From assembly GCA_947501005.1 (NCBI GenBank), contig CANMTU010000002.1:1-64000 (forward strand): a stretch of 64,000 bases of DNA, given 5' to 3'. Under the pieces are notes generated by a model that worked only from the letters and a program-made list of their open reading frames with translations, was not told the DNA's origin and did no database searches. Both the position numbers and the translations under genes were made by a program. Each line of letters starts with the position of its first letter. Position 1 is the first letter of the stretch. Below are positions 13,082 to 58,372 of this stretch, piece after piece. Source of the DNA: an uncultured Erythrobacter sp. (GTDB taxonomy: Bacteria > Pseudomonadota > Alphaproteobacteria > Sphingomonadales > Sphingomonadaceae).

Positions 13082-13511
13082 GATCGGGCGACGCCGTGAT
13101 GGCGTCGGGGCAGGTGCGCATGATGGCCGAGAGATCGTCCCAATCGGAACGATAAAGCGCCTGCCCTGCGCTCAGCTGGTGACAGGAAAGGTCCGTGCCA
13201 TCGGCTGAAACCATCGCGAGCGTGCGCCCGTAGCGATCCTTTCCGAAGCGACGGATGGCGAGGCGTCCCGTCATGGCGGAGCTGAGACTGTCTGCGCTTG
13301 TGGACGGATCTCCGGGCGCACAGGCGCGCCCAGGTCGGCAGTGTCCGGGAAGCTCGGGTGCGTCGATGCCGAGAAGCCGTATGCGCTCCTCGCCGCAGCG
13401 GATCGTGTCACCGTCGGAGACGCTGCAGTCGGCCAGCGCTTCTTCCGGCGGGAGCGGCGGCGGTGCGCATGCAGCCAATGTGATAACAAGTGAGAGTGTG
13501 CACACGTTCAC
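13071..13511 (-). CDS. Thermonuclease-like (SNase-fold) lipoprotein
   Basis: 146 residues from a GTG start at 13511 that forms a GTGA overlap with the stop of the upstream small ORF. The short N-terminus CTLSLVITLAAC ends in a lipobox cysteine. The rest carries the staphylococcal-nuclease-like core: VSDGDTIRCGEERIRLLGIDAPELPG and FGKDRYGRTLAMV, with Asp and Arg residues in the places the fold uses. The signal is unusually short and lacks basic residues, so membrane anchoring is uncertain. A periplasmic nuclease could act during DNA transfer or nutrient scavenging; that is inference. A longer in-frame start in the track has no supporting ribosome site. Confidence 0.75.
   Translation of the reverse strand: MNVCTLSLVITLAACAPPPLPPEEALADCSVSDGDTIRCGEERIRLLGIDAPELPGHCRPGRACAPGDPSTSADSLSSAMTGRLAIRRFGKDRYGRTLAMVSADGTDLSCHQLSAGQALYRSDWDDLSAIMRTCPDAITASPDLIR
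13493..13508. repeat. Degenerate copy of the CACGTGT-NN-ACACGTG palindrome (site F)
   Basis: Reads AGAGTGT-GC-ACACGTT on the plus strand, retaining GTGT-NN-ACACGT of the consensus. It lies over the first codons of the nuclease gene, where a bound protein would block transcription or translation start. Weakest member of the family. Confidence 0.4.
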
Positions 13512-13738
13512 GAGCGAACCTCGACCACCACCCTGCCCTCCGCACCGTCGCACTTGCCGACGCGAAAGGGTTGAAGCGGATTGCCGGTGTGAATAACCGC
13601 CATTGGGCGGCCGAGTTGGTCCATCAGCCGTCCTGCGAGCCGCTGCGCATGCGTACGGCTGCACAGGTCATACCGCTTCGGGCTGAGGTTGGCGGGCTCC
13701 GCGAGGGGGTCGGTCATGGTCGGGTCTTTCTTGTTCAT
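13508..13738 (-). CDS. Small hypothetical protein, coupled to nuclease
   Basis: 76 residues starting at ATG 13738; hydrophilic, with RTHAQRLAGRLMDQLGRP and a PFRVGKCDGAEGRVVVEVRS end that looks like a small beta-rich domain. Its stop overlaps the GTG start of the nuclease gene (GTGA), so translation is coupled. It sits 26 bases downstream of the 220-residue gene, in the same leftward series. Function unknown to me. Confidence 0.6.
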   Translation of the reverse strand: MNKKDPTMTDPLAEPANLSPKRYDLCSRTHAQRLAGRLMDQLGRPMAVIHTGNPLQPFRVGKCDGAEGRVVVEVRS

Positions 13739-13764
13739 GGTCTGCCACGTTGTGTTTAGGCGCG

Positions 13765-14427
13765 CTAGAACTGCGTGGCGTGAACCTTGGTCTGGGGCAC
13801 GATCGAGAACCTCATCTTGGCAAGGTTGCTCACTCGGTATCGCGCGGGCCCGCTATCGGTCAGCGCGAGAGCGGTGCGGCGGCCTTGTTTGCGGATGACG
13901 AAGTCCGTCCCTTCATGCCCGTCGACGAACCTGATCGGTGAGGCGAAGCGGATTCGCATTCCGTCCTCGAGCTTGCGTGTCGCACGGGCCAGATTGCGGA
14001 TGCAGCGCCTGCGCCAATTGAGTGCGGCAGGGACGTCGGTCTCTCCGAGCAGCGCGAGGATCCGCTCGGGACAATCGTCCTCGTAAGGACCGACGGTTTC
14101 GTCCATATCCTTGAAGGCGAAGACGTAGCCATCCTTCGCGCGCGGGGTCCAGCGGACGAGGCAGACGACGGCGAAAGCCGTGCCCGCGATACCGTCGGTT
14201 ATCGGCACAACCGCCGCATAATACACCTTGTTGTGCAGGCAGGACGATGCCAGCACCCGCAAGCCCCGCCGTTGGTGGCCATCGGGCAGCGTGGGTGCTG
14301 TTTTCAACGTGTCAACACGTTCACCTGTTGGACCATAAACGTGTTCGTAGGTGAATTGGTGGTCGAGATACGCCTTCGGTGTCGAGTGCGGGTACATGCT
14401 CGACAGCGGCATGGAGAGCCATCCCAT
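13765..14427 (-). CDS. Hypothetical backbone protein
   Basis: 220 residues beginning MGWLSMPLSSM, with no export signal. The central part is a mixed alpha/beta sequence with AFAVVCLVRWTPRAKDG and DETVGPYEDDCPERILALL, and a basic C-terminus. I do not recognise the family with confidence; proteins with this kind of start occur on sphingomonad plasmids. It is 15 bases downstream of the next leftward gene, so the genes from about 16.2 to 13.1 kb form one transcription unit. A 16-bp palindrome (site A) is embedded in its N-terminal coding part. Confidence 0.6.
   Translation of the reverse strand: MGWLSMPLSSMYPHSTPKAYLDHQFTYEHVYGPTGERVDTLKTAPTLPDGHQRRGLRVLASSCLHNKVYYAAVVPITDGIAGTAFAVVCLVRWTPRAKDGYVFAFKDMDETVGPYEDDCPERILALLGETDVPAALNWRRRCIRNLARATRKLEDGMRIRFASPIRFVDGHEGTDFVIRKQGRRTALALTDSGPARYRVSNLAKMRFSIVPQTKVHATQF
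14306..14321. repeat. Palindrome AACGTGT-CA-ACACGTT (site A)
   Basis: A perfect 7+2+7 inverted repeat inside the 220-residue gene, in the codons for ERVDTL. It shares ACGTGT-NN-ACACGT with sites at 15258, 16201, 18643 and, with one mismatch, 58026. Confidence 0.7.
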
Positions 14428-14442
14428 GATGGAATCCTTTCT

Positions 14443-15108
14443 TCAGAGTGCGGTCGTTTGGGCGGGCGCCGCGAGATGCAGCTCGCGGCAAAGGGTGCGG
14501 GCGAACTTGGCGATATCGCCGAGGATGCCGATCTCCACGCGTGTGGGCGAGCCGGTCCATCCTCCCTGGCGTTGTTCGGCGCGCATGTAGGTGACCTCGC
14601 GGCCGGGCATCATCCGGTCGGGATCGAGTTGCAGTCGGAAGCGGTCGGTGGCCAGCTCGAAGCGCGGAACGACCGCCGATCCCCCTGCAAGGCTGCGCAG
14701 ATCGTAGGTGTCGCCGTAGAACCCGAGTTCATGCGCCAAGGCTCGTAGCCGCGTTCGGGCGGCGTCCTTGTAGACGCGGATGAGATGCGGATCGTATCCG
14801 ACGCCGCGGCGCACCAGCGGCACGAGAACATCAGTCGAGCGCAATTGTCTGATCCGCTCCGTGCAGGCCGCGCGAAGGACCGCGTCCTCGAGATGCCTGG
14901 CCTCGGGGTCGCCGCCGGCGGCGATTCGCCCCATGTGCCGGGCTAGAAGCAGGACGGCGGGATCGGTTTCGGGGTCGAGGCCGGCGAGACGAGCGTCGTC
15001 CATCGCCTCGTTGACGGCGCGCGCGCATGTGGTGACGACACGCAGTGCGTCCGGCTGCAGCGCCCGTTCGAAGCGGAACGCGAGATCGTAAGCGGGGATT
15101 GGAGGCAT
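14443..15108 (-). CDS. Hypothetical backbone protein
   Basis: 221 residues from ATG 15108, chosen because AAGGGAG lies seven bases upstream; the track's earlier start has none. A helical, Arg-rich N-terminal half (AVNEAMDDARLAGLDPETDPAVLLLARHMG) precedes a mixed C-terminal half. No family recognised. It sits between ardC (65 bases upstream) and the 220-residue gene (15 bases downstream) and is presumably cotranscribed with them. Confidence 0.6.
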   Translation of the reverse strand: MPPIPAYDLAFRFERALQPDALRVVTTCARAVNEAMDDARLAGLDPETDPAVLLLARHMGRIAAGGDPEARHLEDAVLRAACTERIRQLRSTDVLVPLVRRGVGYDPHLIRVYKDAARTRLRALAHELGFYGDTYDLRSLAGGSAVVPRFELATDRFRLQLDPDRMMPGREVTYMRAEQRQGGWTGSPTRVEIGILGDIAKFARTLCRELHLAAPAQTTAL

Positions 15109-15173
15109 GGCGTATCTCCCTTGGAAAGCCGCCCCTCCCCCTCCCCCCCTTCCCTCTTGCGCCGGTCGTGCCG

Positions 15174-16169
15174 TCACGCGGTCAGGTCGACGGTCTCGCG
15201 CTCACCGCCGGTTCCGATTGCGTCGTCGCCTGCGTCGGACTCGGCGTCGAACCTGTCCACGTGTTCACACGTGGGCGTGCCGAAACTCTTAAGATAACCG
15301 AACGCCTGTTCCGCCTTGGAGGCGGCGTGGATGATCGCGCTCGTGTCACCCTTCAGGATCTTCAGCCAGTGGTCGATATAACTGGCGTGGTTGTCGTGCA
15401 GCTCGGCGGGTAGATCCAGGTCGGCGCAAACGAGGCATTGGCCGATTGAGGCCACGAGTTCCTCGAAAGCGTAGGCGGCATCACCGAAGCGCTTGCCGAA
15501 TTTGCGCTCGAGTCGCCCTGCCCCGCCTGACCAGTGAATCGACTCGTGCGCGCGGGTGCTTGCGTAAAGGTCGTCCGAATAAAACGCGCCGCGCTCGGGC
15601 ATCTGGATGTAATCGCCGACAGGTGAGAAATAGGCGGCGTTGCCACCGTGCCGAACCTCGACCGGAAGGTTGGTGAAGAAGCCGTCGATCGCTGCGCGGT
15701 GTTGTGATTCCTGCCGGGGCTCCGGCGGAACGAGCTCCGGGTAGTAATGCATCGGCAAACCGTCGATCTGGTCGGCGTTGAAGACGTTGTAGGCTTTCAG
15801 GAAGCGGATGCTGCGGTTGTGCTCCTCGCCGGTGACCTTGTTGGTGTCGGTCTTGCTAATCTGCGAGTAGTAGACGCTGAGCGAGGAAGTTTCGCCCTTG
15901 CGGACCTGCGCGCCAATGGCCTGTGCCTGGCGATACGTCATCCAGTACCGGCTATTGAAGCCGCACGCATCGGCCATGGCCCAAAGGAACAGGGTGTTGA
16001 TCCCGGTATAGGGGGTGCCGCAGTGACGCAGCGGGCGCCCGCCACCCCCAGAACGGTCCCACGGTCGTGCCCAGGGCAGAACGCCGGTTTCGAGTTTGGA
16101 AAGAATGAGGGCGCTGATCTCGTTGGCGATGTCGCGGCGCGGGCGAGGGGCGCGGGAAGGCTTGCGCAT
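15174..16169 (-). CDS. ardC: ArdC-like antirestriction protein
   Basis: 331 residues matching the ArdC family. The N-terminal single-strand-DNA-binding domain is ISALILSKLETGVLPWARPWDRSGGGGRP...GTPYTGIN; the C-terminal metallopeptidase-like domain carries HESIHWSG (HExxH) after YIQMPERGAFYS. ArdC proteins coat incoming single-stranded plasmid DNA and protect it from restriction in a new host. The ATG at 16169 has AAGG upstream. A 16-bp palindrome lies 32-47 bases before the start and a second is inside the 3' coding part, suggesting control by a shared regulator. It heads the leftward block down to the nuclease gene. Confidence 0.88.
   Translation of the reverse strand: MRKPSRAPRPRRDIANEISALILSKLETGVLPWARPWDRSGGGGRPLRHCGTPYTGINTLFLWAMADACGFNSRYWMTYRQAQAIGAQVRKGETSSLSVYYSQISKTDTNKVTGEEHNRSIRFLKAYNVFNADQIDGLPMHYYPELVPPEPRQESQHRAAIDGFFTNLPVEVRHGGNAAYFSPVGDYIQMPERGAFYSDDLYASTRAHESIHWSGGAGRLERKFGKRFGDAAYAFEELVASIGQCLVCADLDLPAELHDNHASYIDHWLKILKGDTSAIIHAASKAEQAFGYLKSFGTPTCEHVDRFDAESDAGDDAIGTGGERETVDLTA
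15258..15273. repeat. Palindrome CACGTGT-TC-ACACGTG (site B)
   Basis: A perfect 7+2+7 inverted repeat inside the 3' end of ardC (codons for CEHVD), 150 bases upstream of the next gene's start. Same family as sites A, C, D and E. Confidence 0.75.
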
Positions 16170-16200
16170 GATGGAACCTTTCGGCTGAATGCAACATGCA

Positions 16201-16216
16201 CACGTGTGAACACGTG
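16201..16216. promoter_or_regulatory. Palindrome CACGTGT-GA-ACACGTG upstream of ardC (site C)
   Basis: A perfect 7+2+7 inverted repeat in the short gap between the ParB-like gene and ardC, followed by a partial half-site GCGTGTTGA. Its position just ahead of the ardC start is what a repressor operator would occupy. It is the one intergenic member of the family. Confidence 0.65.
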
Positions 16217-16316
16217 AGCGTGTTGAATGATGGCAAGAAGAATGCGGCAGCCGATCGCAACCGGCTGCCGCGAGTGTCGCCCAGGAGACAGGCGCCAAAG
16301 AAGACTGGGCGGGCCG

Positions 16317-18398
16317 CTATTCGGCGGGTTCGAGGACGTCTTCGGGATGCTCGACGTCGAAGTCGTTGCCGTCGTCACCGAAGCCGTCGGCAGGATCGTC
16401 GTCGGGATCGACACCCTCGTCGTCCTTGTGGACACCCGTTTCGTCGTCATCCTCGTCGTCGAGCGAGTCTTCGAGGGCGGGGCGTTCGACGTCGAAGCGC
16501 ATCGCGTCGGGCACCCATGCAAGGGCAGCTTCCTTGGTGTCGGTTTCGGTGATTGCCTCTCCAGCGAAGAGCTTTTCGCAGGCCGAGGATACGTCCCCCT
16601 TCTTCGAAGCGCTGTAGCGCGCCGCGAGCGTCGTGCCGCCGATCTCGGTGAGCAGCGCGAGCAGGGTGCCCTTGGCGACGCGGTCGAAGAAGTTCGCCGA
16701 AGTCGGCCGCCACCATTGCGCGACGTCGATTTCGAGGATCGACGCGAGCCGCGCGTGCAGCGGGTTGGTCGTCGCCGAATACTCGGGCTTGGCCTCGAGC
16801 GAGCCCGCCACCATCAGCGCGAGCCAGGCCGCCTTGGCCTCGTCGTCGAGGGTGCGGAACGCCTCGAAACGCGCGGTCACGTCACCGGCCTCGGTCCAGC
16901 TCGCATCGAGCGCTTCGCGTGCCTGTTCGATCGCGATGCGGGCCTGGGTGGGCTCCATCTCGCTGCCGAGTGCCGGATCCTGTGGGCGCGATGCCTTCAT
17001 CGTCGTGCCGTAGCGATCGTAGCCGCGGTTCCCGTCGATCATTGCGAACAGAGCGTAATCGAGGGCGAGGGCGGGGTTTGCGAGGATCGAGGCGGCGAGG
17101 ATATCACGGCGCTGCATCGCCAGTTCGTCCGAGAGGCGCGCGCTCAACGGCTTGCCGCCGGGAGCGGTCGTCTCGGGTGCCGACAGTGCGCCGTTGCTCT
17201 TGATCGCGCCTCCGGTCGAGCCCTGATCGTCGTCCTCGCGGCGGATCGGCGTCTCGCTGAAGTAGCTGGTTTCCAGCTTCATCGAGCCGTCGGGTGCGAG
17301 GATGAGGAAGGTGCCGACCTGTGCCTTCAACTCGTCGGGCAGGATCGTTGGCCGATCGTTGAGCTCGTCGTACTCGGCGTCGAGCGTGCGGTACTCGTCC
17401 TCAAGGGTGGCGGCCGCCTCGTCCTCGACCTGGCCGCTGTCGATCTGCCCGGCGATCTCGTCCATGCGCTCAGCGATGGTGTCGATCCGCTGCTGCTCTT
17501 CGTCGGTAAACGAGACAGTGGGGAGACTGACCCGGTGAAGATCGGCGGTCGCGTTGTAGATATGCGAGCTGGCGATCGGACGGATCCAGGCAAGCCCGGT
17601 TTCCTCGCCGAGGCGCTGGGCTTCGGCTTCCATCAGCTTGCCGGCGAGCTCGCGCGCGATTTCGGGGTCCGTCCAACGGTCACCGTCCTCGCTGAACAGC
17701 TCGCGCTCGACGCTGCCGCCGGCGGCGACATAGGCGTCTTCGCCCACGAGGATTGCGATCGGATCGCTCGCCTTCAGCGCGTCGCCGGCGATCGACCGTC
17801 GAATTTGGTCGGGCGTGGTGTAGCTGTAATGGCCGTACTGTTCGAAGATCCGCACCTGTTTGGTGTGATCGTCGGTCGATGCGTAGGCCTTCGCCATGTC
17901 GAGGGTCATGTCGCCCTTGGCGAGGGCCTCGAACACGGGGTCTGCGAGCCCGGCGAGGCGCAGGCGTCCTTCAATGAACCGCCGGGTCTGCCCAAACCGC
18001 TTGGCCACCGCGTCGATGTCTCCGTCGACTCCCAGGAAGTGCTGGAAGGCCCGGCATTCCTCGGCGGGCGTGAGCTTGAGTTGGTGGAAGTTGGCGGCAA
18101 GCGAGGTCTCGCTCAGTTCGGCGTCCTCGGCCTTCACGACGAGGACCGGAACCTCGAAGGTCGCGGCGTCGATCGTTCCTTGTTCGGCGAGCAGGTTCAG
18201 CGCACGAAGCCGCCGTCCGCCGTCGAACACCTCGAAGCTGCCGCGCGGCTTCTTCACTGGCGTGGCGAGCAGGTTCTGCAGAACGCCGCGCGCCGCGATG
18301 TCGGCCGCCATGGAGGGAATGTTGAGCTTATCGTCCGACACGGTGCGGACGTTGATGGGCGAAAGCCGGAGCTTCGCCAGCGGGATCATCTGGTTCAT
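16317..18398 (-). CDS. Large ParB/KorB-like DNA-binding protein
   Basis: 693 residues from ATG 18398 with AGGAGA upstream. The N-terminus is a ParB/Srx-type domain (IPLAKLRLSPINVRTV, then FEVFDGGRRLRALNLL, then ELSETSLAANFHQLKLTPAEE) followed by an HTH region (AVAKRFGQTRRFIEGRLRLAGL). The remaining 450 residues are a helical region and a strongly acidic tail (DDEDDDETGVHKDDEG). It is distinct from the 327-residue ParB at 28.2 kb, so it is probably not the main partition protein; large ParB-like proteins of this kind often act as KorB-like global plasmid regulators. It is encoded beside ardC and the helicase giant. It is the leading candidate to bind the dispersed 16-bp palindromes, by inference only. 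Confidence 0.82.
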   Translation of the reverse strand: MNQMIPLAKLRLSPINVRTVSDDKLNIPSMAADIAARGVLQNLLATPVKKPRGSFEVFDGGRRLRALNLLAEQGTIDAATFEVPVLVVKAEDAELSETSLAANFHQLKLTPAEECRAFQHFLGVDGDIDAVAKRFGQTRRFIEGRLRLAGLADPVFEALAKGDMTLDMAKAYASTDDHTKQVRIFEQYGHYSYTTPDQIRRSIAGDALKASDPIAILVGEDAYVAAGGSVERELFSEDGDRWTDPEIARELAGKLMEAEAQRLGEETGLAWIRPIASSHIYNATADLHRVSLPTVSFTDEEQQRIDTIAERMDEIAGQIDSGQVEDEAAATLEDEYRTLDAEYDELNDRPTILPDELKAQVGTFLILAPDGSMKLETSYFSETPIRREDDDQGSTGGAIKSNGALSAPETTAPGGKPLSARLSDELAMQRRDILAASILANPALALDYALFAMIDGNRGYDRYGTTMKASRPQDPALGSEMEPTQARIAIEQAREALDASWTEAGDVTARFEAFRTLDDEAKAAWLALMVAGSLEAKPEYSATTNPLHARLASILEIDVAQWWRPTSANFFDRVAKGTLLALLTEIGGTTLAARYSASKKGDVSSACEKLFAGEAITETDTKEAALAWVPDAMRFDVERPALEDSLDDEDDDETGVHKDDEGVDPDDDPADGFGDDGNDFDVEHPEDVLEPAE

Positions 18399-18473
18399 GA
18401 CAACGTCTCCTGGTAGGAATGGACCGGCGAAATCCTCGCCGGACACCTTCTCCGGTCCTCCTTCCCTTTCTCT

Positions 18474-21400
18474 TCAGGCCGTCCCGGCCGCCGTTGAGGC
18501 GAGCAGGCGCGCGAGGATGTCGGGCACCTGGTCGACAGGGAGGAAAACCCGGGTGCGGTACGAAATCACCTCGGAGAAGCAGCCAAGGGACTTGAGCCAG
18601 GGGAGTTGCCTGGCCGGGGCCCCGACGATTTCCACACGTGTGGACGTGTTAACACGTGAACGCCTTAGTTCGCAGGGGAAGGGGTGCTGCAATGGAACGC
18701 TGGCGCCGCCCAAGACTGCGGCGGCGATCTGTTCGGGCGGCAGCGCGGCCGTCTGCTTGACCCCGAGCGTGGTAAGCAGCTTGGCGACGTCCTTCGGAAA
18801 AACGATGCGGCCGAGCCAGGATTGACCCTGCGCGTCGACGACCCGGTTGACCTCGAGATAATCGGAGGGGAGGGCGGACCAGATGGGCAACAGCAGCCCG
18901 GTCGCGAGCTGAATGGTCTCGTGATCGAGCCGGTTCTCGGCGTCGTCGGCCTCGGCCGCCCACGCCGCAGCGAAGACCGCCTCAGGGCAGGGCTCCCACG
19001 CGGATTCGAACATGTCATGTTCGCGGTGGTATTCGCGCCGGGTCGGACGTTGCAGCTCGATGCGCGGATGGGTCGTTCCGTCGTCGGTCATCTCGGACCG
19101 GGACTTCGTGCTGAGTGCGACCTTGCCCGATCGGGCGTTCTTGAGGAAGCGGGCGGAGGCGTCGCTCGCCGCGAGCCGCATCACCCGCTCGAGGGGTACG
19201 GGATGCCGGCGTCGGGCCATCTCGATCGTCAACAAGTGCGAGGTCGCGCCGCTGACCGGATCGGTGCACAGCAACGTATCGTCGATGATGGTGGCGGTCT
19301 CGACCGGCATGGTCTCGACTCCGACATCGAGCGTGCCCGCTTCCCGAGCGGCGGAAACCCTCGTTTCGACGAGTGACAGAAATTCGTCGAAGATGAGGTT
19401 CTGCAGGCCGATCGGCAGGGCGAGGATGCGGTTCAGCCAGCGCTGGATCGGCGGCAGATCCTCTTTCAGGATGCCGTCGGTATCGGTCAGCTCGAGCCCG
19501 GTGCGTTCCTCGAACTCGGAGAAGCTGACACTGGTGAGCTTGCCGCTAACGAGCAGGTGAAACCAGGTGACCAGCGCCGCCTTGGCGTAATCGCTTTCGA
19601 GATTATCGGCGGGATCGAACAGGTTTTGGCCACCGGTCTGCCGCTGGCCGCGGGTCAGTGCGCCCAGACTGTCGAGACGACGGGCGATGGTCGAGGTGAA
19701 GCGCAACTCGCCCTTGCAGGAAGTCGTGACGGGCCGGAACAGGGGCGCGGAAGCCTGATGAGTGCGGTGGGTGCGCCCGAGGCCCTGGATCGCCCTGTCG
19801 GCCCGCCAGCCCGGCTCCAGGAGGAGATGGACACGCTGCTGCTGGTTGGGGACGTCGAGGCTGGCGTGGTAGGAGCGCCCCGTGCCGCCCGCATCCGAGA
19901 AAATGAGGATGCGCTTGGTGCCTTCCATGAAGGCGGCCGCGTCGGCCTGGGTCGACCGCGTGGTGCGGGTTTCGAGCTTCTGGCCGCCGCGGCCGGTGGG
20001 AACGAGCCGCTTGGAGCGTCCGGTCACCTCGGCGACGTTTTCGTGCCCGAAGCGCTCGAGGATCGCGTCCAGCGCAGCCTTGATCGGGGGGAGGGCGCAC
20101 AAGTGCTCGATCAGCTCGGCCCGCTTGGCCTCCGCCTCGGGATTGACGACGGGGTTGCCGGCAGCGTCGAACATCGGCCGCGAGCGGACCTCGCCCGTAT
20201 CGTCGGTGTAGGTCTCCATCTGCCGTGTCGGGAAGGCGCGGGTCAGATAGTCGATGACGTACTCGACCGGGCTCAATTCCAGTTCCGGATCGGCCCGTTC
20301 CTCGGGCGAGAGTTCGGCCAGGCGGCGATTGAGGATGGATTCCGCCGTGGTGACGAGCTGCAGCACCACCGACGTGCCGTCGGCTATGTGCTGTTCGACC
20401 GCGGCGATGACGGTCGGCAGCTTCATGGAAAGGAGCACTTGTCCGAAGAAACGCTGCTTCGTGCTTTCGAACCGGGATCGCGCGGCCGCCTTGGCCCCGG
20501 AGTTGAGTGTGGAGCCGTCGAGCTCGTCGACGACGCCGGTCAGCTCCAGCGCCGCTTCCATGTTTCGGTGGATGATGGCCCAGGCATCGGCGTAGGTGTC
20601 GTAGATTGCGATCTGCTCGTCGGTCAGTTCGTGTCGCAGAATCTCGTACTCTACCCCGGCGAATGAGAGCGCTCGCGCCATGTAGAGACCAGTCGCCTTG
20701 AGATCGCGGGCGACCAGCTCCATGGCGGCGATCCCGCCCTGACGGATCTCGGAGATGAAAGCCTCGCGGTTGGCGAACGCGGTTTCCGGGCCCCACAGGC
20801 CGAGCCGGACGGCGTAGGCAAGGTTGTTGACTTCGGAGGCCCCGGTCGCGGATGCGTAAAGCACGCGCGCGCCTGGTAACCGGTTCTGGAGCAGCACCCC
20901 GGCGATCCCCTGTTGCGAGCCCTTCTTGGTGCCCCCAATCCCCCTTCCAGAGGCGCCTTCGCCACCGGCGACACCGCCCATTTCGTGCGCCTCGTCAAAC
21001 GCGATGACCCCCTCGAACCCCTCACCGGCCCACTGGATGATCTGCTCAAGACGGCTCGCGTCGCCCCGCATCGAGCGCAGCGTGGGATAGCTGACGAACA
21101 GCACGCCTTCGTCGAGCGTGATGGGCTGGTCGATCTTCCAGCACGAAAGCGACTGCACGTCGGCGGCGATCCCGCCAAGCGCCGTCCAGTCCCGGCGAGC
21201 GTCCTCGAGGAGCGGTTCGTTCTTCGAGACCCAGATGGCGCGGCGGCGGCCCTGCAGCCAGTTGTCGAGCACTACGGCGGCGATCTGGCGCCCCTTGCCG
21301 GCGCCGGTGCCGTCGCCGAGGAAGAAGCCCTTGCGATAGCGGACACCGTCCGCGTCGAGGAGAAGACCGACGCCCTCCTTGTCGGGGCGGAAGCTCCCCG

Positions 21401-22727
21401 GGAGCCACTGGCTCCACGCGCTGCCGGCATAGACCACGGTTTCGAGCTGCGAAGCCGACAACATGCGTTCGCTGACCGTGCGCTCGGGCAGGTGAGGGAT
21501 GTGGTTTGGAATTGGGGCGGGGATTGAGCCCATTGCCACCGACTCGACCAGCGCCGTGGGATGCTCTCCGGCCGCGGAGAAGATGATCCGGCTTGGCCGG
21601 TAGGGAAGATAGACGCCGGTTTGTTCGAGCAGGGCTGCAGGCGCCTCCAGGGCCTCGTAGGCGACGGGCAGGATGTCGTTGCGGACCGGGGCCCGGAAGA
21701 CTCGGGGAGCGGCCACCTTGGCCTTGCGCGCGCTGCCGAAAAGCGAAACGCCCCTGGGCGAAGCGGCGGTCGGTTGGAGTTCGGGGATGATGGCGCTTCG
21801 CGGCGTCGACGCCACACAGTCGAGAAGCTCGGCCGTGGTGGTGCGCTGGAAGGTGGAGGGCAGTTGTCCGCCCGGGATCTTGTCCAGCACGTAGAGACGC
21901 ACGGCGATCCCGGTTCCGTGCTTGGCATAGGCGCGCTCGAGGCGGATCGAGGTTCGGACGGTCACGGGTGCGAGCGTGTTGCGGAAGATTTCGTCCATTT
22001 TCGCCGACGGAGCGAACCAGTCCGGCATGATCGCTACGATGCGGCCACCGCCCCGGAGATGCCGGATCGCCGCGTTAAGATGGCGGACCGCGGCCAGGTG
22101 ATCGCCGCCACGCCCGAGCGAGCGCGAAAATGGAGGATTCAACAGGATCAGGGTTGGCCGGTCGGCACCGGCCAGCGTGCTGGCGATCGAGGCTCCATCG
22201 TGCCCGGTAACGCGCTGTTTGAAGCTGTCCTCAAGGCGTTCGCGCCGCGCCGGATCGAGTTCATTGAGACTGAGGTCGCGCACGCGCGGCAGCAACGCGA
22301 CGAGAAGGCCATTGCCGGCGCTCGGTTCGAGCACGATATCATCGGCCTGGGGCTGCGCCATGAAGACGGCGAAGGCCGCGAGGTCGATCGGCGTTGAGAA
22401 TTGTTGCCAGTCGAGCTGCTCCTCGCTGCGCACGGTCTGGGTCGGCATGCGGGCGGCGAGATCGATGGCCGTCTCGACGTCGCCGGACGTGATGGCGGAG
22501 CGCGGTTCGGCGCGGAGGGAAAGGGCGAGGGCGTGCTCGAGCGCCTCAAAGCTGTCGCGCTGGGTCCATTTGCCCTGCGCATCGGTGCCGCCGTGGGCCG
22601 AGGTCATCGCGGCGTTGAGGACGGAGCGCGTGATCGCTTCGCCCGAAGCGATGCGGTCGGCCAGCGAGCTTGCGGCGGCGAGCGAGGGCGAGCGGCGCTG
22701 TTCGGCCGCGTCGAAGAGATCGGACAT
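18474..22727 (-). CDS. Methyltransferase-fold / Strawberry-notch helicase fusion protein
   Basis: A 1417-residue protein. Residues about 110-280 form an adenine-methyltransferase-like fold with motif I VLEPSAGNGLL and the catalytic-type NPPF (about 197-200). An SF2 helicase of the Strawberry-notch class follows: Walker A GDGTGAGKGRQ (about 471-481), DEAH-type box FDEAHEMGG (about 577), and a C-terminal SNO domain with FSDAGGTGRSYHAS and GLGRTHRTHQA. It may modify and remodel incoming plasmid DNA; the true role of this conserved plasmid giant is not settled. ATG 22727 begins MSDLFDAAEQRR. A palindrome (site D) sits in the last 180 bases of coding sequence. Confidence 0.88.
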   Translation of the reverse strand: MSDLFDAAEQRRSPSLAAASSLADRIASGEAITRSVLNAAMTSAHGGTDAQGKWTQRDSFEALEHALALSLRAEPRSAITSGDVETAIDLAARMPTQTVRSEEQLDWQQFSTPIDLAAFAVFMAQPQADDIVLEPSAGNGLLVALLPRVRDLSLNELDPARRERLEDSFKQRVTGHDGASIASTLAGADRPTLILLNPPFSRSLGRGGDHLAAVRHLNAAIRHLRGGGRIVAIMPDWFAPSAKMDEIFRNTLAPVTVRTSIRLERAYAKHGTGIAVRLYVLDKIPGGQLPSTFQRTTTAELLDCVASTPRSAIIPELQPTAASPRGVSLFGSARKAKVAAPRVFRAPVRNDILPVAYEALEAPAALLEQTGVYLPYRPSRIIFSAAGEHPTALVESVAMGSIPAPIPNHIPHLPERTVSERMLSASQLETVVYAGSAWSQWLPGSFRPDKEGVGLLLDADGVRYRKGFFLGDGTGAGKGRQIAAVVLDNWLQGRRRAIWVSKNEPLLEDARRDWTALGGIAADVQSLSCWKIDQPITLDEGVLFVSYPTLRSMRGDASRLEQIIQWAGEGFEGVIAFDEAHEMGGVAGGEGASGRGIGGTKKGSQQGIAGVLLQNRLPGARVLYASATGASEVNNLAYAVRLGLWGPETAFANREAFISEIRQGGIAAMELVARDLKATGLYMARALSFAGVEYEILRHELTDEQIAIYDTYADAWAIIHRNMEAALELTGVVDELDGSTLNSGAKAAARSRFESTKQRFFGQVLLSMKLPTVIAAVEQHIADGTSVVLQLVTTAESILNRRLAELSPEERADPELELSPVEYVIDYLTRAFPTRQMETYTDDTGEVRSRPMFDAAGNPVVNPEAEAKRAELIEHLCALPPIKAALDAILERFGHENVAEVTGRSKRLVPTGRGGQKLETRTTRSTQADAAAFMEGTKRILIFSDAGGTGRSYHASLDVPNQQQRVHLLLEPGWRADRAIQGLGRTHRTHQASAPLFRPVTTSCKGELRFTSTIARRLDSLGALTRGQRQTGGQNLFDPADNLESDYAKAALVTWFHLLVSGKLTSVSFSEFEERTGLELTDTDGILKEDLPPIQRWLNRILALPIGLQNLIFDEFLSLVETRVSAAREAGTLDVGVETMPVETATIIDDTLLCTDPVSGATSHLLTIEMARRRHPVPLERVMRLAASDASARFLKNARSGKVALSTKSRSEMTDDGTTHPRIELQRPTRREYHREHDMFESAWEPCPEAVFAAAWAAEADDAENRLDHETIQLATGLLLPIWSALPSDYLEVNRVVDAQGQSWLGRIVFPKDVAKLLTTLGVKQTAALPPEQIAAAVLGGASVPLQHPFPCELRRSRVNTSTRVEIVGAPARQLPWLKSLGCFSEVISYRTRVFLPVDQVPDILARLLASTAAGTA
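18632..18658. repeat. Double palindrome CCACACGTGTGG + ACGTGT-TA-ACACGT (site D)
   Basis: A perfect 12-bp palindrome (18632-18643) abuts a perfect ACGTGT-TA-ACACGT dyad (18644-18657), giving two tandem binding-site-like elements. They lie in the 3' coding end of the helicase gene, about 245 bases ahead of the ParB-like gene start. Confidence 0.7.
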
Positions 22728-22794
22728 GATGGGGACTCCTGGGTCGGCCGAGTGCCAATAACACCGGGCTCATGATCCCCGTTCCCTCTCCCCT

Positions 22795-23634
22795 TTACTG
22801 GTCCTCCAAGACGTCGGCCCAATCGCCGTAACGTTCCGGGGGCGGCATGCGACGGACGGCGAAGCCTTGGCTCTCATAAATTTGCAGGGCGCCCTCCCCA
22901 GCCCTGTGGCCGACGGCGCCGTTATCCTCGGCCAGGATGACCGATGTGACACTTTTGGGTAGCGCGAGTGCACCCAGACGCTTCGCGCCCAGCGAGGCCC
23001 AGCACGGAATCCCTTGAAGTTGGGTGAAGGCGGCGGCAGTTTCGAAGCCCTCAGCGATCGCGACCGTGTCTTCGGTCGGGGTGCCGCGCCAGCTGCCGGC
23101 GCCGGTTTCGCCGAGCAACATCTTGTCTGTGTAGCCGCCATGCTCGAGATCAAGAAAGGTCCGCTGGACCGCGGTTATGCCGGCGTCGTTGCGCACGCCA
23201 ATGAGCAAGGCTGGCAAGAAGGCCGTCAGCGGCTTGCGGCCTTTTGGGCAGCGCGGATGATAGCGCAAGTCGACAAAATCGAGCGCGAGCGAACGGCTCT
23301 GAAGATAGTGTTCGGCCGGCGTGCCACACACCGCCCTCCCCTCCCCCCATATTCTGGCTACGAGGGCACCCGGTTCTAAGGCAATCGGGATCTTGGGAAT
23401 GGGATAGTTCTTGTCGGATTTGATCAGCCGGAGCTCGCGTAGGACGGTCTCGGATGAACACCCGGCGAAACAATGAACGAGAATGCCCTTGTCACCTTGA
23501 CGCAACGATAGGCTAGCCGTTGAGTCGGCGTGGCCGGGGCATCGGCACATGGCCGTTCTGCCAAGCCAGCGTCCCCCGAGGGTACCGACCAGATTCACGA
23601 GGTCCGAAGTCGGCTGAAGAGCAGTGATGGGCAT
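22795..23634 (-). CDS. Toprim-domain plasmid primase-like protein
   Basis: 279 residues. The N-terminus has a zinc-finger pattern (CRCPGHADST...HCFAGCS) like DnaG/TraC-type primases; the C-terminal half is a Toprim domain with VAIAEGFETAAAFTQ (Glu) and VILAEDNGAVGH (Asp). It likely primes the complementary strand of transferred DNA or acts in plasmid replication. It lacks a fused helicase, which would have to come from another protein. It lies upstream of the helicase giant in the same leftward series and is divergent from the lytic transglycosylase. Confidence 0.82.
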   Translation of the reverse strand: MPITALQPTSDLVNLVGTLGGRWLGRTAMCRCPGHADSTASLSLRQGDKGILVHCFAGCSSETVLRELRLIKSDKNYPIPKIPIALEPGALVARIWGEGRAVCGTPAEHYLQSRSLALDFVDLRYHPRCPKGRKPLTAFLPALLIGVRNDAGITAVQRTFLDLEHGGYTDKMLLGETGAGSWRGTPTEDTVAIAEGFETAAAFTQLQGIPCWASLGAKRLGALALPKSVTSVILAEDNGAVGHRAGEGALQIYESQGFAVRRMPPPERYGDWADVLEDQ

Positions 23635-23705
23635 ACCCAGTTCCTTTCCCTCGTTCTACCCCCCTCCCCTCTTTTGAATGCGCCGCGAACGGCAAGTCAG
23701 ACCCG

Positions 23706-23728
23706 AACTCCTCCTGGTAGGAGTTTTT
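23706..23728 (+). terminator. Intrinsic terminator-like hairpin in transglycosylase leader
   Basis: A perfect 7-bp stem (AACTCCT / AGGAGTT, loop CCTGGT) followed by a T run lies 58 bases before the transglycosylase start on the same strand. No rightward gene precedes it, so it may work as an attenuator. A second hairpin (GAGGCC-TTTT-GGCCTT) directly precedes the GGAGGG ribosome site. Confidence 0.5.
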
Positions 23729-23785
23729 CTCCGGATTGACGGGGCATCCAATCCGAGGCCTTTTGGCCTTTCGGAGGGCGGTGTT

Positions 23786-24664
23786 ATGAAGCGGATACTT
23801 GCGAGCCTCGGCGCGATGTTTGCGATGACCGCACCTGTTTCTGCGCGGCAGGTCGAACTTCTAAACTTCGGGGCGCCGAGCCCCGATGTAGTCCTGCATG
23901 TCGGGGGGCCAGTTGCTCGCCAACAGGTGGCTGGGTCCGAGGCCGACGTGGAAAACGTTCTAACCGCAGAATTTGGCAAGTTTGGCATAGAATTGGCGGG
24001 CGCACCGCTTCATCCGACGGTGTCGCGCATAGATGTGCCGATGTGGATGCGGACGGGTAAAGCCGCTGGCGCAAGTAGGATAGCCTGGCCCGGCGGCAAC
24101 CGATCGTTCGACGAAACTTGCGCTCCTCCCCTCTTCCGCCCTCGCCGGGATCTCGGTTTCAGAACCGAACAGCGGCGCGCTGCGCTCTATCCGCTGGTGT
24201 CGGCGATCGCATGCGAGCATGGATTACCTGTTGGACTGTTCGATGCGCTGATCGCGCAGGAGAGCCGCTACCGGCTCGATGCGCTCTCTCCGGCAGGGGC
24301 GATGGGGTTGGCGCAACTGATGCCCGATACAGCACGGTACCTGAGGGTCCACAACCCGTGGGATGCAATAGACAATCTTCGTGGCGGTGCCCGTTACCTG
24401 CGCGAACAGCTCGACGAGTTTGGGCGGGTCGATCTGGCCCTCGCCGCGTACAATGCCGGACCCGGCCGCGTGCGCGCTCGACGCAGAGTGCCGCGGATCA
24501 CGGAGACAATCGATTATGTTTCGAAGATTACTGCGGCCTGGAGCAGATTGATGAGCCACGAAACGACCTTGATCAACGCAGGAACGCCCGCTCAGCGCCC
24601 CGGCCCGCTCCGCCAAACCGCGGTGCTGACCTATACGTCGCCAAGCGCCCCAAACCCTAAGTGA
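23786..24664 (+). CDS. Lytic transglycosylase (conjugation-associated, SLT family)
   Basis: 292 residues from ATG 23786, which has GGAGGG upstream and begins a signal peptide (KRILASLGAMFAMTAPVSA). The SLT domain in the C-terminal half shows the catalytic Glu in ALIAQESRYRLDALS, then AGAMGLAQLMPDTA and ALAAYNAGPGRV. The enzyme cleaves peptidoglycan in the periplasm to let the transfer apparatus through, the VirB1/TraB-associated role. It is the only rightward gene between 13.1 and 26.8 kb, and its leader contains terminator-like hairpins, so it may be separately controlled. Confidence 0.88.
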   Translation: MKRILASLGAMFAMTAPVSARQVELLNFGAPSPDVVLHVGGPVARQQVAGSEADVENVLTAEFGKFGIELAGAPLHPTVSRIDVPMWMRTGKAAGASRIAWPGGNRSFDETCAPPLFRPRRDLGFRTEQRRAALYPLVSAIACEHGLPVGLFDALIAQESRYRLDALSPAGAMGLAQLMPDTARYLRVHNPWDAIDNLRGGARYLREQLDEFGRVDLALAAYNAGPGRVRARRRVPRITETIDYVSKITAAWSRLMSHETTLINAGTPAQRPGPLRQTAVLTYTSPSAPNPK

Positions 24665-25028: not shown

Positions 25029-26330
25029 CTAGCTTGCCGCTTGAGGGTGACGCCGCTTAGCGTAGCTGACAACGAAGGCTTCCCACATGCGCAGCCATTC
25101 CTTCTGGGTTCGTGGTTTCTCGATGTTGGGGCAACCGCGCCGGAACTCGGTAGCCATCAAATCCACATCCCACGGCGCACCTTTCGTCTTGCCCACTTCG
25201 AGGAAGGGTGCCTCGATGGTGCCATAGCGAATTGATCCTGTCGGGAACGCAAATGTCTCCACGGCAGGTGCGACCGCCCTGCCCTCCCGGGTTTCGTCGG
25301 CCTCGACCGATGATCTCGGTGCTTTCTTGGGCGAATGACCGACGAGCCGTAGATGCGTGCCCACCAGTTTTCGCTCCAGCGGCGCGGGAGAGGGATGAAG
25401 CACAACCTTTCGGCCCGAAAGATCGACGTTGGCATTCGGGTAGACCGAGGAGACGAGTTGCATCGTTTCACGCACCGTCTGTCGGAAGCGCTTGGTATCA
25501 GCGAGGTTGCCGAGATGCTTTGCGAGTTGGTCCCAGCTTATAACCTGACCCCGATCAGAGGTAATCCTAGGCAGTCGGTAAGCGAGATAGGTGTAGAGAT
25601 CGAGCGCGGTCGGGACACCCTTGAGTTCGCGCACGGCCACTTCGTTTAATGGCACGGCATGCTCAACCAGATGATTGTAGAAAATTTCCGACATGCGGAT
25701 TTCCCGGGCAAACGCACCATTGCGATCAAGTGAGCCGGCATATTCATTGGATATTTTGACGTCGCGAACGGCGAACGCGCTTTCGTCACTAGCCTGGCCA
25801 TCCCAACGAATTTGCCACTCACACGCTAGCAGCCGGTCGACCTGTTCGCGCATGAGGTTAGCAGTGCCGCGCGGACCATAGCTGACAGTCTTGTAGCCAA
25901 GACGCCGCATCCAATCAGTAAAGTTTCTTCCAAGATAAACATCGCGTGATCGTTTGGTCACGGCCTGAGAGAGCATGTAAATCAGAGCGACGCGAGGGTA
26001 GGATCCAAACGGTACACCCATGCTGCGAAGCTGCGTTTTTCCGTCAACGGTCTGGAGCACCGGGCGAGGATTGATGGCAAGTGCATACTTGCCATCCTCA
26101 CGGATGATCGGTGCGGTATCGTCTTTGGGTCTTTTCGTGGGTAATGACATCGCGCAAAGCGCCGAATGGAGAAATGCAGGTACTGGCTCCTCATCTTGGA
26201 CCCGCAGGAATGCGTCCATGGTAAGTTGCGTGCCGGCCTCCACTGCAAATGAGCGGACCTCGTCGGCGCCGCCTTGGATCATTGCGATCGCATATTGGTG
26301 CCCGATTGGCGCGGTGTTCTCGTTGCTCAT
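25029..26330 (-). CDS. repA: Plasmid replication initiator RepA
   Basis: 433 residues from ATG 26330, which has GGGGAGGA eight bases upstream; the track's longer start lacks such a site. It matches the RepA initiator family of alphaproteobacterial plasmids: FGSYPRVALIYMLSQAVTKRSRDVYLG, then FTDWMRRLGY and a winged-helix-like region (SEIFYNHLVEHAVPLNEVAVRELKG). It should bind the iterons in the adjacent gap and open the origin. It is divergent from parA. One iteron-like copy lies in its own 3' coding region near 25307, a position that could mediate handcuffing or autoregulation (inference). Confidence 0.88.
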   Translation of the reverse strand: MSNENTAPIGHQYAIAMIQGGADEVRSFAVEAGTQLTMDAFLRVQDEEPVPAFLHSALCAMSLPTKRPKDDTAPIIREDGKYALAINPRPVLQTVDGKTQLRSMGVPFGSYPRVALIYMLSQAVTKRSRDVYLGRNFTDWMRRLGYKTVSYGPRGTANLMREQVDRLLACEWQIRWDGQASDESAFAVRDVKISNEYAGSLDRNGAFAREIRMSEIFYNHLVEHAVPLNEVAVRELKGVPTALDLYTYLAYRLPRITSDRGQVISWDQLAKHLGNLADTKRFRQTVRETMQLVSSVYPNANVDLSGRKVVLHPSPAPLERKLVGTHLRLVGHSPKKAPRSSVEADETREGRAVAPAVETFAFPTGSIRYGTIEAPFLEVGKTKGAPWDVDLMATEFRRGCPNIEKPRTQKEWLRMWEAFVVSYAKRRHPQAAS

Positions 26331-26442
26331 CGCGAATCCTCCCCGCAGCCGTTTTGATACGCAGAATGATTCCACAACGAGCATGGAGTAATCAAGCCTT
26401 TTGGCGATTTCCCCGCCGACAACGCCGTCGAACTTCCAAAAA

Positions 26443-26775
26443 CACCGATGATCTCGGTGCAAAACGAGGCTTTTCTAACCCCTTCCCGGCCCTATCCCCG
26501 GATTTAATCGAATTCAAAAATTGAAAACGATTCGCGAATCGGATTCTTGAGGGAGATTCTTTAAGTAGGTATGCGCTCCGACATCATCGGTTGATCGGCA
26601 CCGAGATCATTTGCCGCTCGCACGCTGATCATCGGTGCGCACCGACATCATTGGTGATTATCGACAATCCATCCGGGAACTGCCGATCACTCGTAGGCCA
26701 GATGTCGCGACTGGTTCTTGTCGATGACGCGTCAGCCAGTTGCGCTACCGGTCGGCACGGAGATCATCGGTTGAC
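26443..26775. other. Iteron-type replication origin (oriV)
   Basis: The repA-parA gap contains repeated copies of a 17-18 bp element, consensus GCACCGAGATCATCGGT, in both orientations. The first is at 26443-26460. Four clustered copies have ATCAT cores starting at 26583, 26606, 26628 and 26647 (spacing 23, 22 and 19 bases). Another is at 26754-26774. Further copies lie in repA (25307) and early parA (26900). An AT-rich tract at about 26505-26575 with a perfect palindrome CGATTCGCGAATCG (26528-26541) is a candidate unwinding region. Iterons next to repA define the origin of this plasmid class. Confidence 0.75.
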
Positions 26776-28066: not shown

Positions 28067-28082
28067 GTTGCCACGTGACAAC
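28067..28082. promoter_or_regulatory. parS-like palindrome 1 (GTTGCCACGTGACAAC)
   Basis: A 16-bp near-palindrome with one mismatched pair, starting one base after the parA stop. Its form fits the GTT-N10-AAC centromere sites known from repABC-type plasmids. It is likely bound by the downstream ParB. Confidence 0.7.
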
Positions 28083-55384: not shown

Positions 55385-55388
55385 CGCG

Positions 55389-57935
55389 ATGGACGTCAAG
55401 ACGGGCTTCATGAGCCGGCTCCTGGGCGATCAGCGTGCGCCCGATCAGGGCACGCCTTCGCACGGTGTTCCGATGCTGGCACAATGGCTTCCGTATCGCA
55501 GTTTCGACCGCAAGACGGATGTCTTCTACCAGACCGACTCGATCGCTTTCGCACTCGAGGTCGCCCCTTTGGTCGGTGCCGACGAACGGACCGGCGAGAT
55601 CCTTGCGCAGTTCCTGTCGGAGGGCATGCCCGCCGCCTCGCGTCTACAGATCCTATCCTTCCAGTCCCCGCGCGTGGGCGAGACGATCGCCCGCTACGCG
55701 CTGCCGCGCTTCGCCGCCGGCGGGGTCCACCGCAAGATTGCGGAGCATCGGTCGCGGTTCCTGGGGGAGGGGGCGTGGGTGTCGCTTTCGAACGATGGCC
55801 CATTCCATATTCGCCAGCATCGCATCATCCTGTCGGTGTCCTTCAAGCTCGGCAAGGGCTCGGTTGACGAGCTCGTCACCGTGCGCGATTCCATCACCTC
55901 GCTTCTGCAATCGATCAACGTCTCTGTCGCCCGCTATTCCCCGGTCGACCTGATGGCGTTGATCGACGATCTTACGGCCCCGGCCTTTGACGTCTCTGAC
56001 CACCAGATCGAGTATTCCGAGCTCGATCCCATTGCCGATCAGTGCATGCGCCGCGACGTGCAGACGCAGGTTCAGGCCGATCGCTTACTGCTTTCGGTAG
56101 AGCCGCTGCGCGCCGTCACGACGCTGTCGGGGGAGACCGAGTTCGCGGAGATCCGGCCCGATACCTTCGACTATCGCTTCTTCTCGGTGCGCAACTTTCC
56201 GACGCGCTGGGCGCCCTGGGACGGCCAGAAGGTGATCGGCGACATGTTCGCCGACAAGCTGCGGCCCGGATGTCCCACGATGACGAGCCTGTGTCTCGTC
56301 TATCAGGACGAGGAGGCGGCATCCTCCAAGGCGGGCTACAAGTTCATGCGGACCTCGAGCCTGGCCGACAGCAAGTCGGCGCGGTTGCTGCCGCAGCTCA
56401 AGGACCAAAGTCGCGAGTGGGAGCATATCAGCCAGGAGCTTCGGCTCGGCCGCAAACTGGTCCAGGCCTACTACACGGTCGGGATCATGAGCCCGAAGGG
56501 CCGGGGCGACGCCAACGAGCGCACGATCAAGTCGATTTACAAGGCGGCCGGGTGGGATCTGCTCGATGAGCGGTTCCTGCAGATCATGGCGTTCATGAGC
56601 TGCCTGCCGATGACACTCGCCAACGGTCTCGATTCCGATCTGAAGCGCATGAAGCGCCTGCGCACGATGCTGACCACCACGGCGGCCAACATCGCACCGC
56701 TACAGGGCGAGTTTCTCGGCGGACGTCTGCCGCATCTCATGTTCATCGGACGGCGCGGCCAGCCCTTCTTCTGGTCGCCTTTCGAGAACAACGCGGGCAA
56801 CCACAACGTCGCGGTGTTCGGCAAGTCGGGCTCGGGTAAGTCGGTTGCGCTGCAGGAACTGTGCGCCGCGCTCGCCGGTGTCGGCGCGAAGATCATCGTG
56901 ATCGACGACGGCCGCTCGTTCGAGCATATGGCCAAGATGCTCGGCGGCAATTTCGTCAAGTTTCGCCTGCGCGACGGGTTCTCGCTCAATCCGTTCTCGA
57001 TGATCGACGTCGACCTGATCGCGAACGATCCGGACTACCTCGTCGACGCGCTCGCCATGCTCAAGTCGATCATCGGCCAGATGGGCCGGCATATCGACCG
57101 TCTTACCGACACCGAGCGCGGTCTGATCGACAACGCGGTCAACCAGGTGTGGGAAGAGAAGGGTAGGGGCGGCACGATCGACGACGTGATCACCGTCCTC
57201 CGCACGATTGATAACATCGCGGCCGAGGATCTCGCCACCGCCATGTTCCCGTTCTCGGGCCGTGGCACCTACGGCCGTTTCTTTGAAGGCGAGGCCAGCA
57301 TCGACATGACGGCGTCGATGACGGTCTTCGAGCTGTCCGACCTGTCGAGCCGCGAGGAGCTGCGGTCGGTGGTGCTCACCGCGATTATGTTCATGTCTTC
57401 GCAGACGATGCGCCGGATCGACCGCACGACCCCGAAGGCGCTTCTAATCGACGAGGCCTGGCAAATGCTGCGCGGCGGCTCGATGGCCGATTTTGTCGAG
57501 ACCTACAGCCGAACCTGCCGTAAGTACGGCGCCTCACTCATCACTGCGACGCAATCGCTCAACGACTACTACAAGTCGGAAGGGTCGCTCGCCGCGCTTG
57601 AGAACTCGGACTGGTCGGTCATCCTGCAACAGAAGCCCGAGACCATCTCGGACTTCCAGAAGCACGATCGCTTCGACATGGACCCGCATACCGAGGCGCT
57701 GCTCCGCTCGCTCAAGCGCAACGGCACCGACTATTCGGACATCATGATCAAAGGCCCCGACACGCTCGCGGTCGGCCGTCTGGTGCTCGATCCCTATTCT
57801 GCGACGCTCTATTCCTCCTCGCCGGCGGTGTTCGGCCGCATCGAGCATCTGATCGAACAGGGCCTGACGATGGATGAAGCCATCGAGCGGGTCGCGTTCC
57901 CCGACATGCCCCAGACGATGGAGGCGGCGGAATGA
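55389..57935 (+). CDS. traC: TraC, VirB4-like T4SS ATPase
   Basis: 848 residues from ATG 55389. An N-terminal TraC-type domain (AQWLPYRSFDRKTDVFYQTDSIAFALEV) leads to the ATPase with Walker A VFGKSGSGKSVALQEL, Walker B-type KALLIDEAWQMLRGG and a GASLITATQSLNDYY box. It powers pilus assembly and substrate transfer at the cytoplasmic face. The track's earlier start lies within traV. It overlaps the next gene by four bases. Confidence 0.94.
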   Translation: MDVKTGFMSRLLGDQRAPDQGTPSHGVPMLAQWLPYRSFDRKTDVFYQTDSIAFALEVAPLVGADERTGEILAQFLSEGMPAASRLQILSFQSPRVGETIARYALPRFAAGGVHRKIAEHRSRFLGEGAWVSLSNDGPFHIRQHRIILSVSFKLGKGSVDELVTVRDSITSLLQSINVSVARYSPVDLMALIDDLTAPAFDVSDHQIEYSELDPIADQCMRRDVQTQVQADRLLLSVEPLRAVTTLSGETEFAEIRPDTFDYRFFSVRNFPTRWAPWDGQKVIGDMFADKLRPGCPTMTSLCLVYQDEEAASSKAGYKFMRTSSLADSKSARLLPQLKDQSREWEHISQELRLGRKLVQAYYTVGIMSPKGRGDANERTIKSIYKAAGWDLLDERFLQIMAFMSCLPMTLANGLDSDLKRMKRLRTMLTTTAANIAPLQGEFLGGRLPHLMFIGRRGQPFFWSPFENNAGNHNVAVFGKSGSGKSVALQELCAALAGVGAKIIVIDDGRSFEHMAKMLGGNFVKFRLRDGFSLNPFSMIDVDLIANDPDYLVDALAMLKSIIGQMGRHIDRLTDTERGLIDNAVNQVWEEKGRGGTIDDVITVLRTIDNIAAEDLATAMFPFSGRGTYGRFFEGEASIDMTASMTVFELSDLSSREELRSVVLTAIMFMSSQTMRRIDRTTPKALLIDEAWQMLRGGSMADFVETYSRTCRKYGASLITATQSLNDYYKSEGSLAALENSDWSVILQQKPETISDFQKHDRFDMDPHTEALLRSLKRNGTDYSDIMIKGPDTLAVGRLVLDPYSATLYSSSPAVFGRIEHLIEQGLTMDEAIERVAFPDMPQTMEAAE

Positions 57936-58372
57936 ACGCCCAGGTTTTCGACTTCCGTCGCCAGCGCGCTTCCGCGACGACAACACCCCGCATCCTGCCG
58001 ATGGATGTGGACCTGCCAACACGTCCACGTGTGAACACTTGGCGCCACTTCGCCGTTCGTCAGATGGGAGCCGACCTGTGCTACGTCGCGCTTCGCCTGT
58101 CGGGATGGCTGGCGGTCAGCCTGCTCACCACGCTCGGCCTCTACGTGCTGTTCTTCATGGCGCTCGGGAACATGAGCGCGGAAGGCTTCTTCGCCCAGCT
58201 CGCCAACCTCGGCGACCGGTTCGTGGCCGCCGATCCCACGCGCCGTTCCTCGTTCATGTCGCTGGTCACCACGGTCAGCGCGATCCTTTTCCTCGCCGTC
58301 AGCATAGCGCGGCTGCGCTCGCTGCTGGCGATCTTCTCGCTCTCCGACCCGGCCGGAAAGGACAGGCCATGA
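57932..58372 (+). CDS. Unassigned inner-membrane protein in tra operon
   Basis: 146 residues with a basic N-terminal third and two hydrophobic spans (LAVSLLTTLGLYVLFFMALG, TTVSAILFLAVSIARLRSLL). It lies between traC and trbI with four-base overlaps on both sides, so it is made with the transfer machinery. I do not recognise it in the F plasmid set. One copy of the 16-bp palindrome (site E) is in its codons for RPRVNTW. Confidence 0.7.
   Translation: MNAQVFDFRRQRASATTTPRILPMDVDLPTRPRVNTWRHFAVRQMGADLCYVALRLSGWLAVSLLTTLGLYVLFFMALGNMSAEGFFAQLANLGDRFVAADPTRRSSFMSLVTTVSAILFLAVSIARLRSLLAIFSLSDPAGKDRP
58026..58041. repeat. Near-palindrome CACGTGT-GA-ACACTTG (site E)
   Basis: Matches the CACGTGT-NN-ACACGTG family with one changed base, inside the unassigned tra gene, 328 bases before trbI. 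It is directly preceded by ACACGTCC, an additional half-site, much like the doubled site D. Confidence 0.55.

Follow-up and report, generated by a model that had tools for sequence, protein, structure and literature searches.

The perfect dyads scattered through the window, the whole stretch of 64,000 nucleotides of plasmid DNA that was analysed, are very probably parts of longer arrays of octad boxes which are read, or were formerly read, by a ribbon-helix-helix (RHH) partition protein of family PF20605 encoded behind parA, and which have been orphaned in this plasmid. What was observed is the motif itself, with its 8-bp phasing, association with RHH genes and conserved positions, together with the absence of the RHH gene from this plasmid. 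As judged from sequence, the arrays most likely represent operator or centromere boxes for an RHH partition protein resembling omega and ParG, spread over the backbone and left as orphans, and the analysis suggests a family of RHH partition sites with an octad box, dispersed on a conjugative backbone and stranded beside other partition genes.

Dyad copies and their rarity

Perfect ACGTGTNNACACGT dyads (ACGTGT-NN-ACACGT) were found at 14307, 15259, 16202 and 18644 of the window, in agreement within one base with the four copies reported in the initial annotation. The one-mismatch copy (58026) and the degenerate copy (13493) described there were recovered at 58027 and, with two mismatches, at 13494, and further two-mismatch copies occur at 18636 and 58011. 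The longer form CACGTGT-NN-ACACGTG, under which the family had been presented, is perfect in the copies at 15258 and 16201 and imperfect elsewhere, and this 16-bp dyad was rejected as the unit because it fits just two copies. The genome of 3,118,921 bp contains no perfect match beyond the four, which answers the earlier concern that the motif might be equally common in the chromosome, and the reversed pattern, used as a control, gave 0 matches in the same genome. Among 301 scanned genomes of the family (approximately 1 Gb), three besides this one hold a perfect dyad, one each, and 4 of the 7 perfect dyads in that approximately 1 Gb fall inside 4.4 kb. When up to three mismatches are allowed, the window shows no dyad enrichment (21 observed against 17.7 expected), and the signal is therefore confined to the strong copies.

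Octad-box arrays

The dyad is not the true unit, and the dyads are slices of box arrays. Every site is an array of three to five six-base boxes (ACGTGT or its complement) set at an 8-bp step in either orientation, and the octad box has the consensus ACRTGT followed by a 2-bp spacer, as exemplified by the arrays at 15251 (ACCTGT-CC-ACGTGT-TC-ACACGT-GG-GCGTGC) and at 18636 (ACGTGT-GG-ACGTGT-TA-ACACGT). Tandem boxes at a fixed step of 7-8 bp are typical of RHH DNA binders. Two sites had previously been described as doubled; the extra boxes are real, but the description was an understatement, all sites being multi-box arrays. Their location in backbone and tra genes, as proposed earlier, was supported. 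The plasmid to which the window belongs has 129,780 bp, and two further arrays, at contig positions 65529 and 121794, lie beyond the window. The arrays within the window, with scores from the matrix described below and positions of the homologous sites in the sister plasmid plas2, are as follows.

13478..13515, unstranded: degenerate array of 5 octad boxes (ATGTGA ACAAGT GAGTGT ACACGT ACGAGC) at the start of the thermonuclease gene; matrix score 18.4, delimited by box walk, plas2 47492
14307..14328, unstranded: 3-box array ACGTGT-ACACGT-ACCTGT in the DUF6927 gene; score 26.1
15251..15280, unstranded: 4-box array within the 3' end of an ArdC-like gene; score 26.1, plas2 45728
16194..16223, unstranded: 4-box array, intergenic, upstream of the ArdC-like gene; score 27.3, plas2 44784
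18636..18665, unstranded: 4-box array within the 3' end of the strawberry-notch helicase gene; score 29.4, plas2 42366
58003..58040, unstranded: 5-box array in a 146-aa open reading frame (57932-58372) between traC and trbI; score 24.6, plas2 24517

Most of the dyads are located in genes (the copies at 14307, 15259, 18644 and 58027 inside coding sequence, the 16202 dyad in an intergenic region), as might be expected if they had arisen by chance from codon usage or protein conservation. This origin can be practically dismissed, as the encoded peptides differ, one array is intergenic, and just 2, 257, 3 and 93 of 200,000 synonymous re-codings of the coding copies score as well as or better than the real sequence; the concentration of perfect matches within 4.4 kb argues against it as well. 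For the 18636 array, 2 of 200,000 re-codings were equally good. Since so few synonymous re-codings match the real score, the DNA itself is, or was, under selection, and the claim of codon-independent selection made from the letters alone was thereby borne out.

The sister plasmid plas2 and other relatives

The closest complete array-bearing plasmid is plas2 of Croceicoccus marinus OT19 (130,419 bp), in which parA (36360-37034) and then an RHH gene (37034-37315) are located between the transglycosylase and toprim genes. The RHH protein comprises 93 aa and belongs to PF20605 (E = 4e-20; WP_185886215.1), and arrays flank the gene pair, the one at 36326 being 13 bp ahead of parA and the one at 37328 coming after the RHH stop. 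All 8 arrays of the window's plasmid have a counterpart at the homologous place of plas2, at approximately 82-87% DNA identity. At the 14307 array, about 25 bp match plas2 base for base between diverged flanks, and the 16194 array differs from plas2 44784 by one box reversed in orientation, the array being kept in both. The array scores amount to 191 bits in the window's plasmid versus 175 bits in plas2. The 12 arrays of plas2 are all found within 28 kb of its par locus on the 130-kb circle, a clustering with a probability of about 2e-4 under uniform placement of the ten arrays outside par, in a test that is rough because the 28-kb radius was picked after the data had been seen.

A third carrier, pCME4A9II, shares a 7.7-kb piece with 96% identity to the window's plasmid that holds three perfect copies and one near copy; the RHH gene was not found in this plasmid (L020). 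Arrays were not found in the L022, L097 and L098 plasmids, which carry the same genes at 77-78% identity. Decay of the dyads with retention of the encoded residues, named earlier as evidence against a role of the motif, was seen solely in such outgroup plasmids wholly devoid of arrays. A 2.8-kb segment of the window (31576-34421) is 99.7% identical to plas2 in a backbone of 82-87% identity, and represents recently shared mobile cargo.

Box arrays at parA-RHH loci of other genomes

A search of 401 genomes of the order for relatives of the plas2 RHH protein recovered them in 29. Around these 29 RHH loci and that of plas2, pairs of ACRTGT/ACAYGT boxes no more than 40 bp apart are spaced by 8 bp (21 pairs), 16 bp (18), 24 bp (14), 32 bp (6) and 40 bp (1), and only 2 pairs are off phase (26 and 34 bp). 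An array matrix was trained on the RHH loci alone, with the window and plas2 excluded, and applied with a cut-off of at least 18 bits; the seeding box came from the window finding, and the 8-mers enriched at RHH loci, ACACGTTC and TGTGAACA, agree with it without the seed. This independent matrix revealed exactly 8 strong arrays in the window's plasmid (13486, 14307, 15251, 16194, 18636, 58019, 65529 and 121794), compared with 0.1 expected, and 12 arrays in plas2, compared with 0.2 expected. An array passing the training cut is present at only 15 of the 29 RHH loci, and box sequence therefore drifts within the RHH family.

Six sequenced stretches from plasmids with an RHH gene contain 25 strong arrays, of which 22 are situated within 1.5 kb of that gene, a neighbourhood that makes up 23 of 343 kb. 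In two annotated plasmids, arrays immediately precede parA and surround the RHH gene. Those of Sphingomonas NBWT7 are placed directly before parA, at the parA-RHH junction and right behind each of two RHH genes. Of the three perfect dyads in other genomes, two (G289:C33 and G290:C2) sit within about 100 bp of an RHH gene. Box arrays in mixed orientation flank or occupy the parA-RHH cassettes in plas2 and in most other plasmids examined. Because the boxes co-locate with ParA-linked RHH genes, they were assigned to the ParA-linked RHH protein as the putative reader. A literature search on sphingomonad RHH partition returned no paper, and a PDB search with the RHH protein sequence returned no match; the assignment provides PF20605, a family of ParA-linked RHH proteins with no solved structure found by sequence search, with a defined box and a likely reader.

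Partition genes of the window's plasmid

The partition and replication features of the window are listed below.

23640..23790, unstranded: junction of the toprim and lytic transglycosylase genes; plas2 has its parA-RHH cassette here (36360-37315), the window none
25029..26462, minus strand: RepA_C replication initiator gene repA, adjoining parAB
26845-28065 (parA) and 28225-29220 (parB), plus strand: SopAB-type pair, parB with a SopB-type HTH; partition genes unrelated to parA-RHH
28067..28082, second copy 28180-28195, unstranded: canonical parS GTTGCCACGTGACAAC of the window's ParAB, differing from the array motif

In the window, the toprim gene (22795-23634) is directly followed by the transglycosylase gene (23678-24664). 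HMM searches for PF20605 and RHH revealed no gene in the window's genome and plasmid and one gene in plas2. A small RHH gene right behind parA, a hallmark of an RHH-type (type Ib-like) ParABS system, is accordingly present in plas2 and absent from the window's plasmid. As the parA-RHH cassette is absent and another parAB/parS set is present, the eight arrays are regarded as orphans.

The GTTGCCACGTGRCAAC parS-like palindromes lie between parA and parB of the window, and plas2 is devoid of them. The arrays were considered as canonical parS of a ParB, which would be one 16-bp palindrome built on CACGTG close to parAB, and rejected, since the parS of this plasmid is a different 16-mer (28067 and 28180), whereas the arrays are 8-bp phased and located elsewhere. 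The plasmid's own ParB, which had been listed among the proteins to assay, is not supported as the reader: its canonical parS sites are absent from plas2. The region between repA and parA (26580-26780) contains repeated ATCATCGGT/GATCATCGGT words, which look like RepA-origin iterons.

Candidate readers proposed earlier

The initial annotation had considered the following gene product the best candidate binder, acting in a scattered operator set of KorB type.

16317..18398, minus strand: 693-aa ParB-like protein with ParB_N/HTH_ParB domains; judged unlikely as the reader

A role of this protein in reading the dyads as KorB-type operators and silencing nearby genes agrees with the position of its gene among the sites, with its ParB_N and HTH_ParB domains and with its presence in all three array-bearing plasmids, where the N-terminal domain is 98-99% identical. 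Nevertheless, we consider it improbable, for its relatives in L022 and L097 are 78% identical overall and 81% in the HTH region and these plasmids have no arrays; neither do L098 and the more distant carriers of the protein. Moreover, the same arrays adjoin RHH genes in plasmids of other gene content. Phasing of boxes by 8 bp in either orientation is a trait of RHH proteins and not of ParB operators. A scan of the genome contigs with the ParB-like protein yielded two relatives only. The dispersal implied by a KorB-type set does hold, with 8 arrays here and 12 in plas2, but its reader was probably named wrongly, the motif co-locating with RHH genes.

The HTH protein encoded at 49.5 kb, or another regulator common to this plasmid and plas2, appears a slightly poorer candidate still. 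It does have a homologue in plas2, and the undecayed state of the arrays would fit a reader that is still present. However, the two homologues are only 58% identical though the boxes are the same, an equally close homologue exists in the array-free L097/L098, none was found in the stretches of other array-bearing RHH plasmids, and such a reader leaves the arrays at RHH loci unexplained.

Probable dispersed partition sites and their possible function

From the data described above we infer binding of the boxes by an RHH protein, a centromere or regulatory role of the arrays and their recent orphaning. If the RHH protein of plas2-type plasmids behaves like omega and ParG, its dimers would occupy successive boxes and bring in ParA. 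The arrays at the parA-RHH cassette may function both as an autoregulatory operator, which sets par expression, and as a centromere, while the extra arrays over approximately 55 kb of backbone, mostly intragenic (helicase, ArdC, DUF6927, traC-trbI, traH), might extend the partition complex and/or dampen backbone transcription. Since the plas2 arrays lie near par and are mostly intragenic, an extended partition complex appears favoured over plain promoter control. The arrays of the window's plasmid, which has repA and the SopAB-type parAB/parS but no parA-RHH cassette, would have been stranded recently or would be used in trans.

Some observations count against this explanation. Most arrays are intragenic and not at promoters; and those of the window's plasmid score at least as high as those of plas2, which would be unexpected for readerless sites if the gene had not been lost recently. 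In most RHH plasmids examined, few strong arrays occur away from par, unlike the dispersal in plas2 and the window's plasmid. The undecayed state of the arrays implies that the loss was recent, that the sites are used in trans, or that another protein reads them.

Within the orphaned RHH-site explanation, the chance that the arrays are pure relics, functionless in this plasmid, falls somewhat short of even. The lack of any PF20605 gene in the genome and the replacement parAB/parS speak for it, and the lack of decay speaks against it: in simulations of neutral divergence by at least 2% from a plas2-like state, fewer than 0.1% of runs reach the total score that was observed. These simulations start from plas2 instead of the true ancestor, bound only the time since loss and are subject to ascertainment bias, the window's plasmid being the one in which the sites were initially spotted. 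Less probable, though not negligible, is that the intragenic arrays form a distributed RHH centromere, selected here without the protein, which would let the plasmid exploit the partition machinery of an RHH plasmid in the same cell or compete with it. A pair of plasmids with and without the reader allows the role of dispersed RHH sites, in segregation or in transcription, to be addressed, and likewise the fate of partition sites after an exchange of partition genes.

Comparison with known systems

The omega (ParB)/parS system of pSM19035 relies on an RHH partition protein that recognizes WATCACW heptads, organized in six parS sites of 7-10 repeats each that overlap promoters (PMC9499535). It resembles the system described here in the small RHH protein encoded with a ParA ATPase and in contiguous boxes of mixed orientation at the par genes and beyond. 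However, the boxes here are 8-bp ACRTGTNN and not 7-bp WATCACW, and the arrays have 3-6 boxes, are mostly intragenic over approximately 55 kb and lack the reader gene in the window's plasmid. ParF-ParG of TP228 shares the gene order, in which a ParA-type ATPase precedes a centromere-binding RHH protein whose N-terminus is extended, whereas the RHH protein here belongs to PF20605 and Pfam reported no ParG match; a comparable dispersal of arrays is not known for ParG.

KorB of RK2, a CTP-clamp ParB with the 16-bp operator O_B (PMC11790492), is similar in that sites of a partition protein are dispersed over a conjugative plasmid backbone, and differs in that the box arrays here are likely read by an RHH protein. 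The RHH global regulator ArtA of pSK41 is encoded by the tra region and has six sites, of which those at tra genes act as promoter operators (PMC6540685). In both cases a single conjugative plasmid carries several sites for an RHH protein that touch tra and segregation genes, but ArtA, unlike the RHH candidate here, is not a ParA partner.

Other repeated words

When the outgroup plasmids L022-L025, L097 and L098 were screened de novo for 8-mers that might form a dispersed motif in place of the arrays, the words that emerged were mainly of the CCCTCCCC type. The CCCTCCCC/GGGGAGGG word is strongly over-represented in window 10001-24000, L023, L024 and L097, with 9-12 copies per 14-42 kb compared with 0.4-1.1 expected. 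In the array-free relatives, another parA-type gene and its small partner are found behind the ArdC gene (L022 23241-24754), and TGCGC-type tandem repeats, perhaps another box system, adjoin the parA-type gene of L022 (24363-24486).
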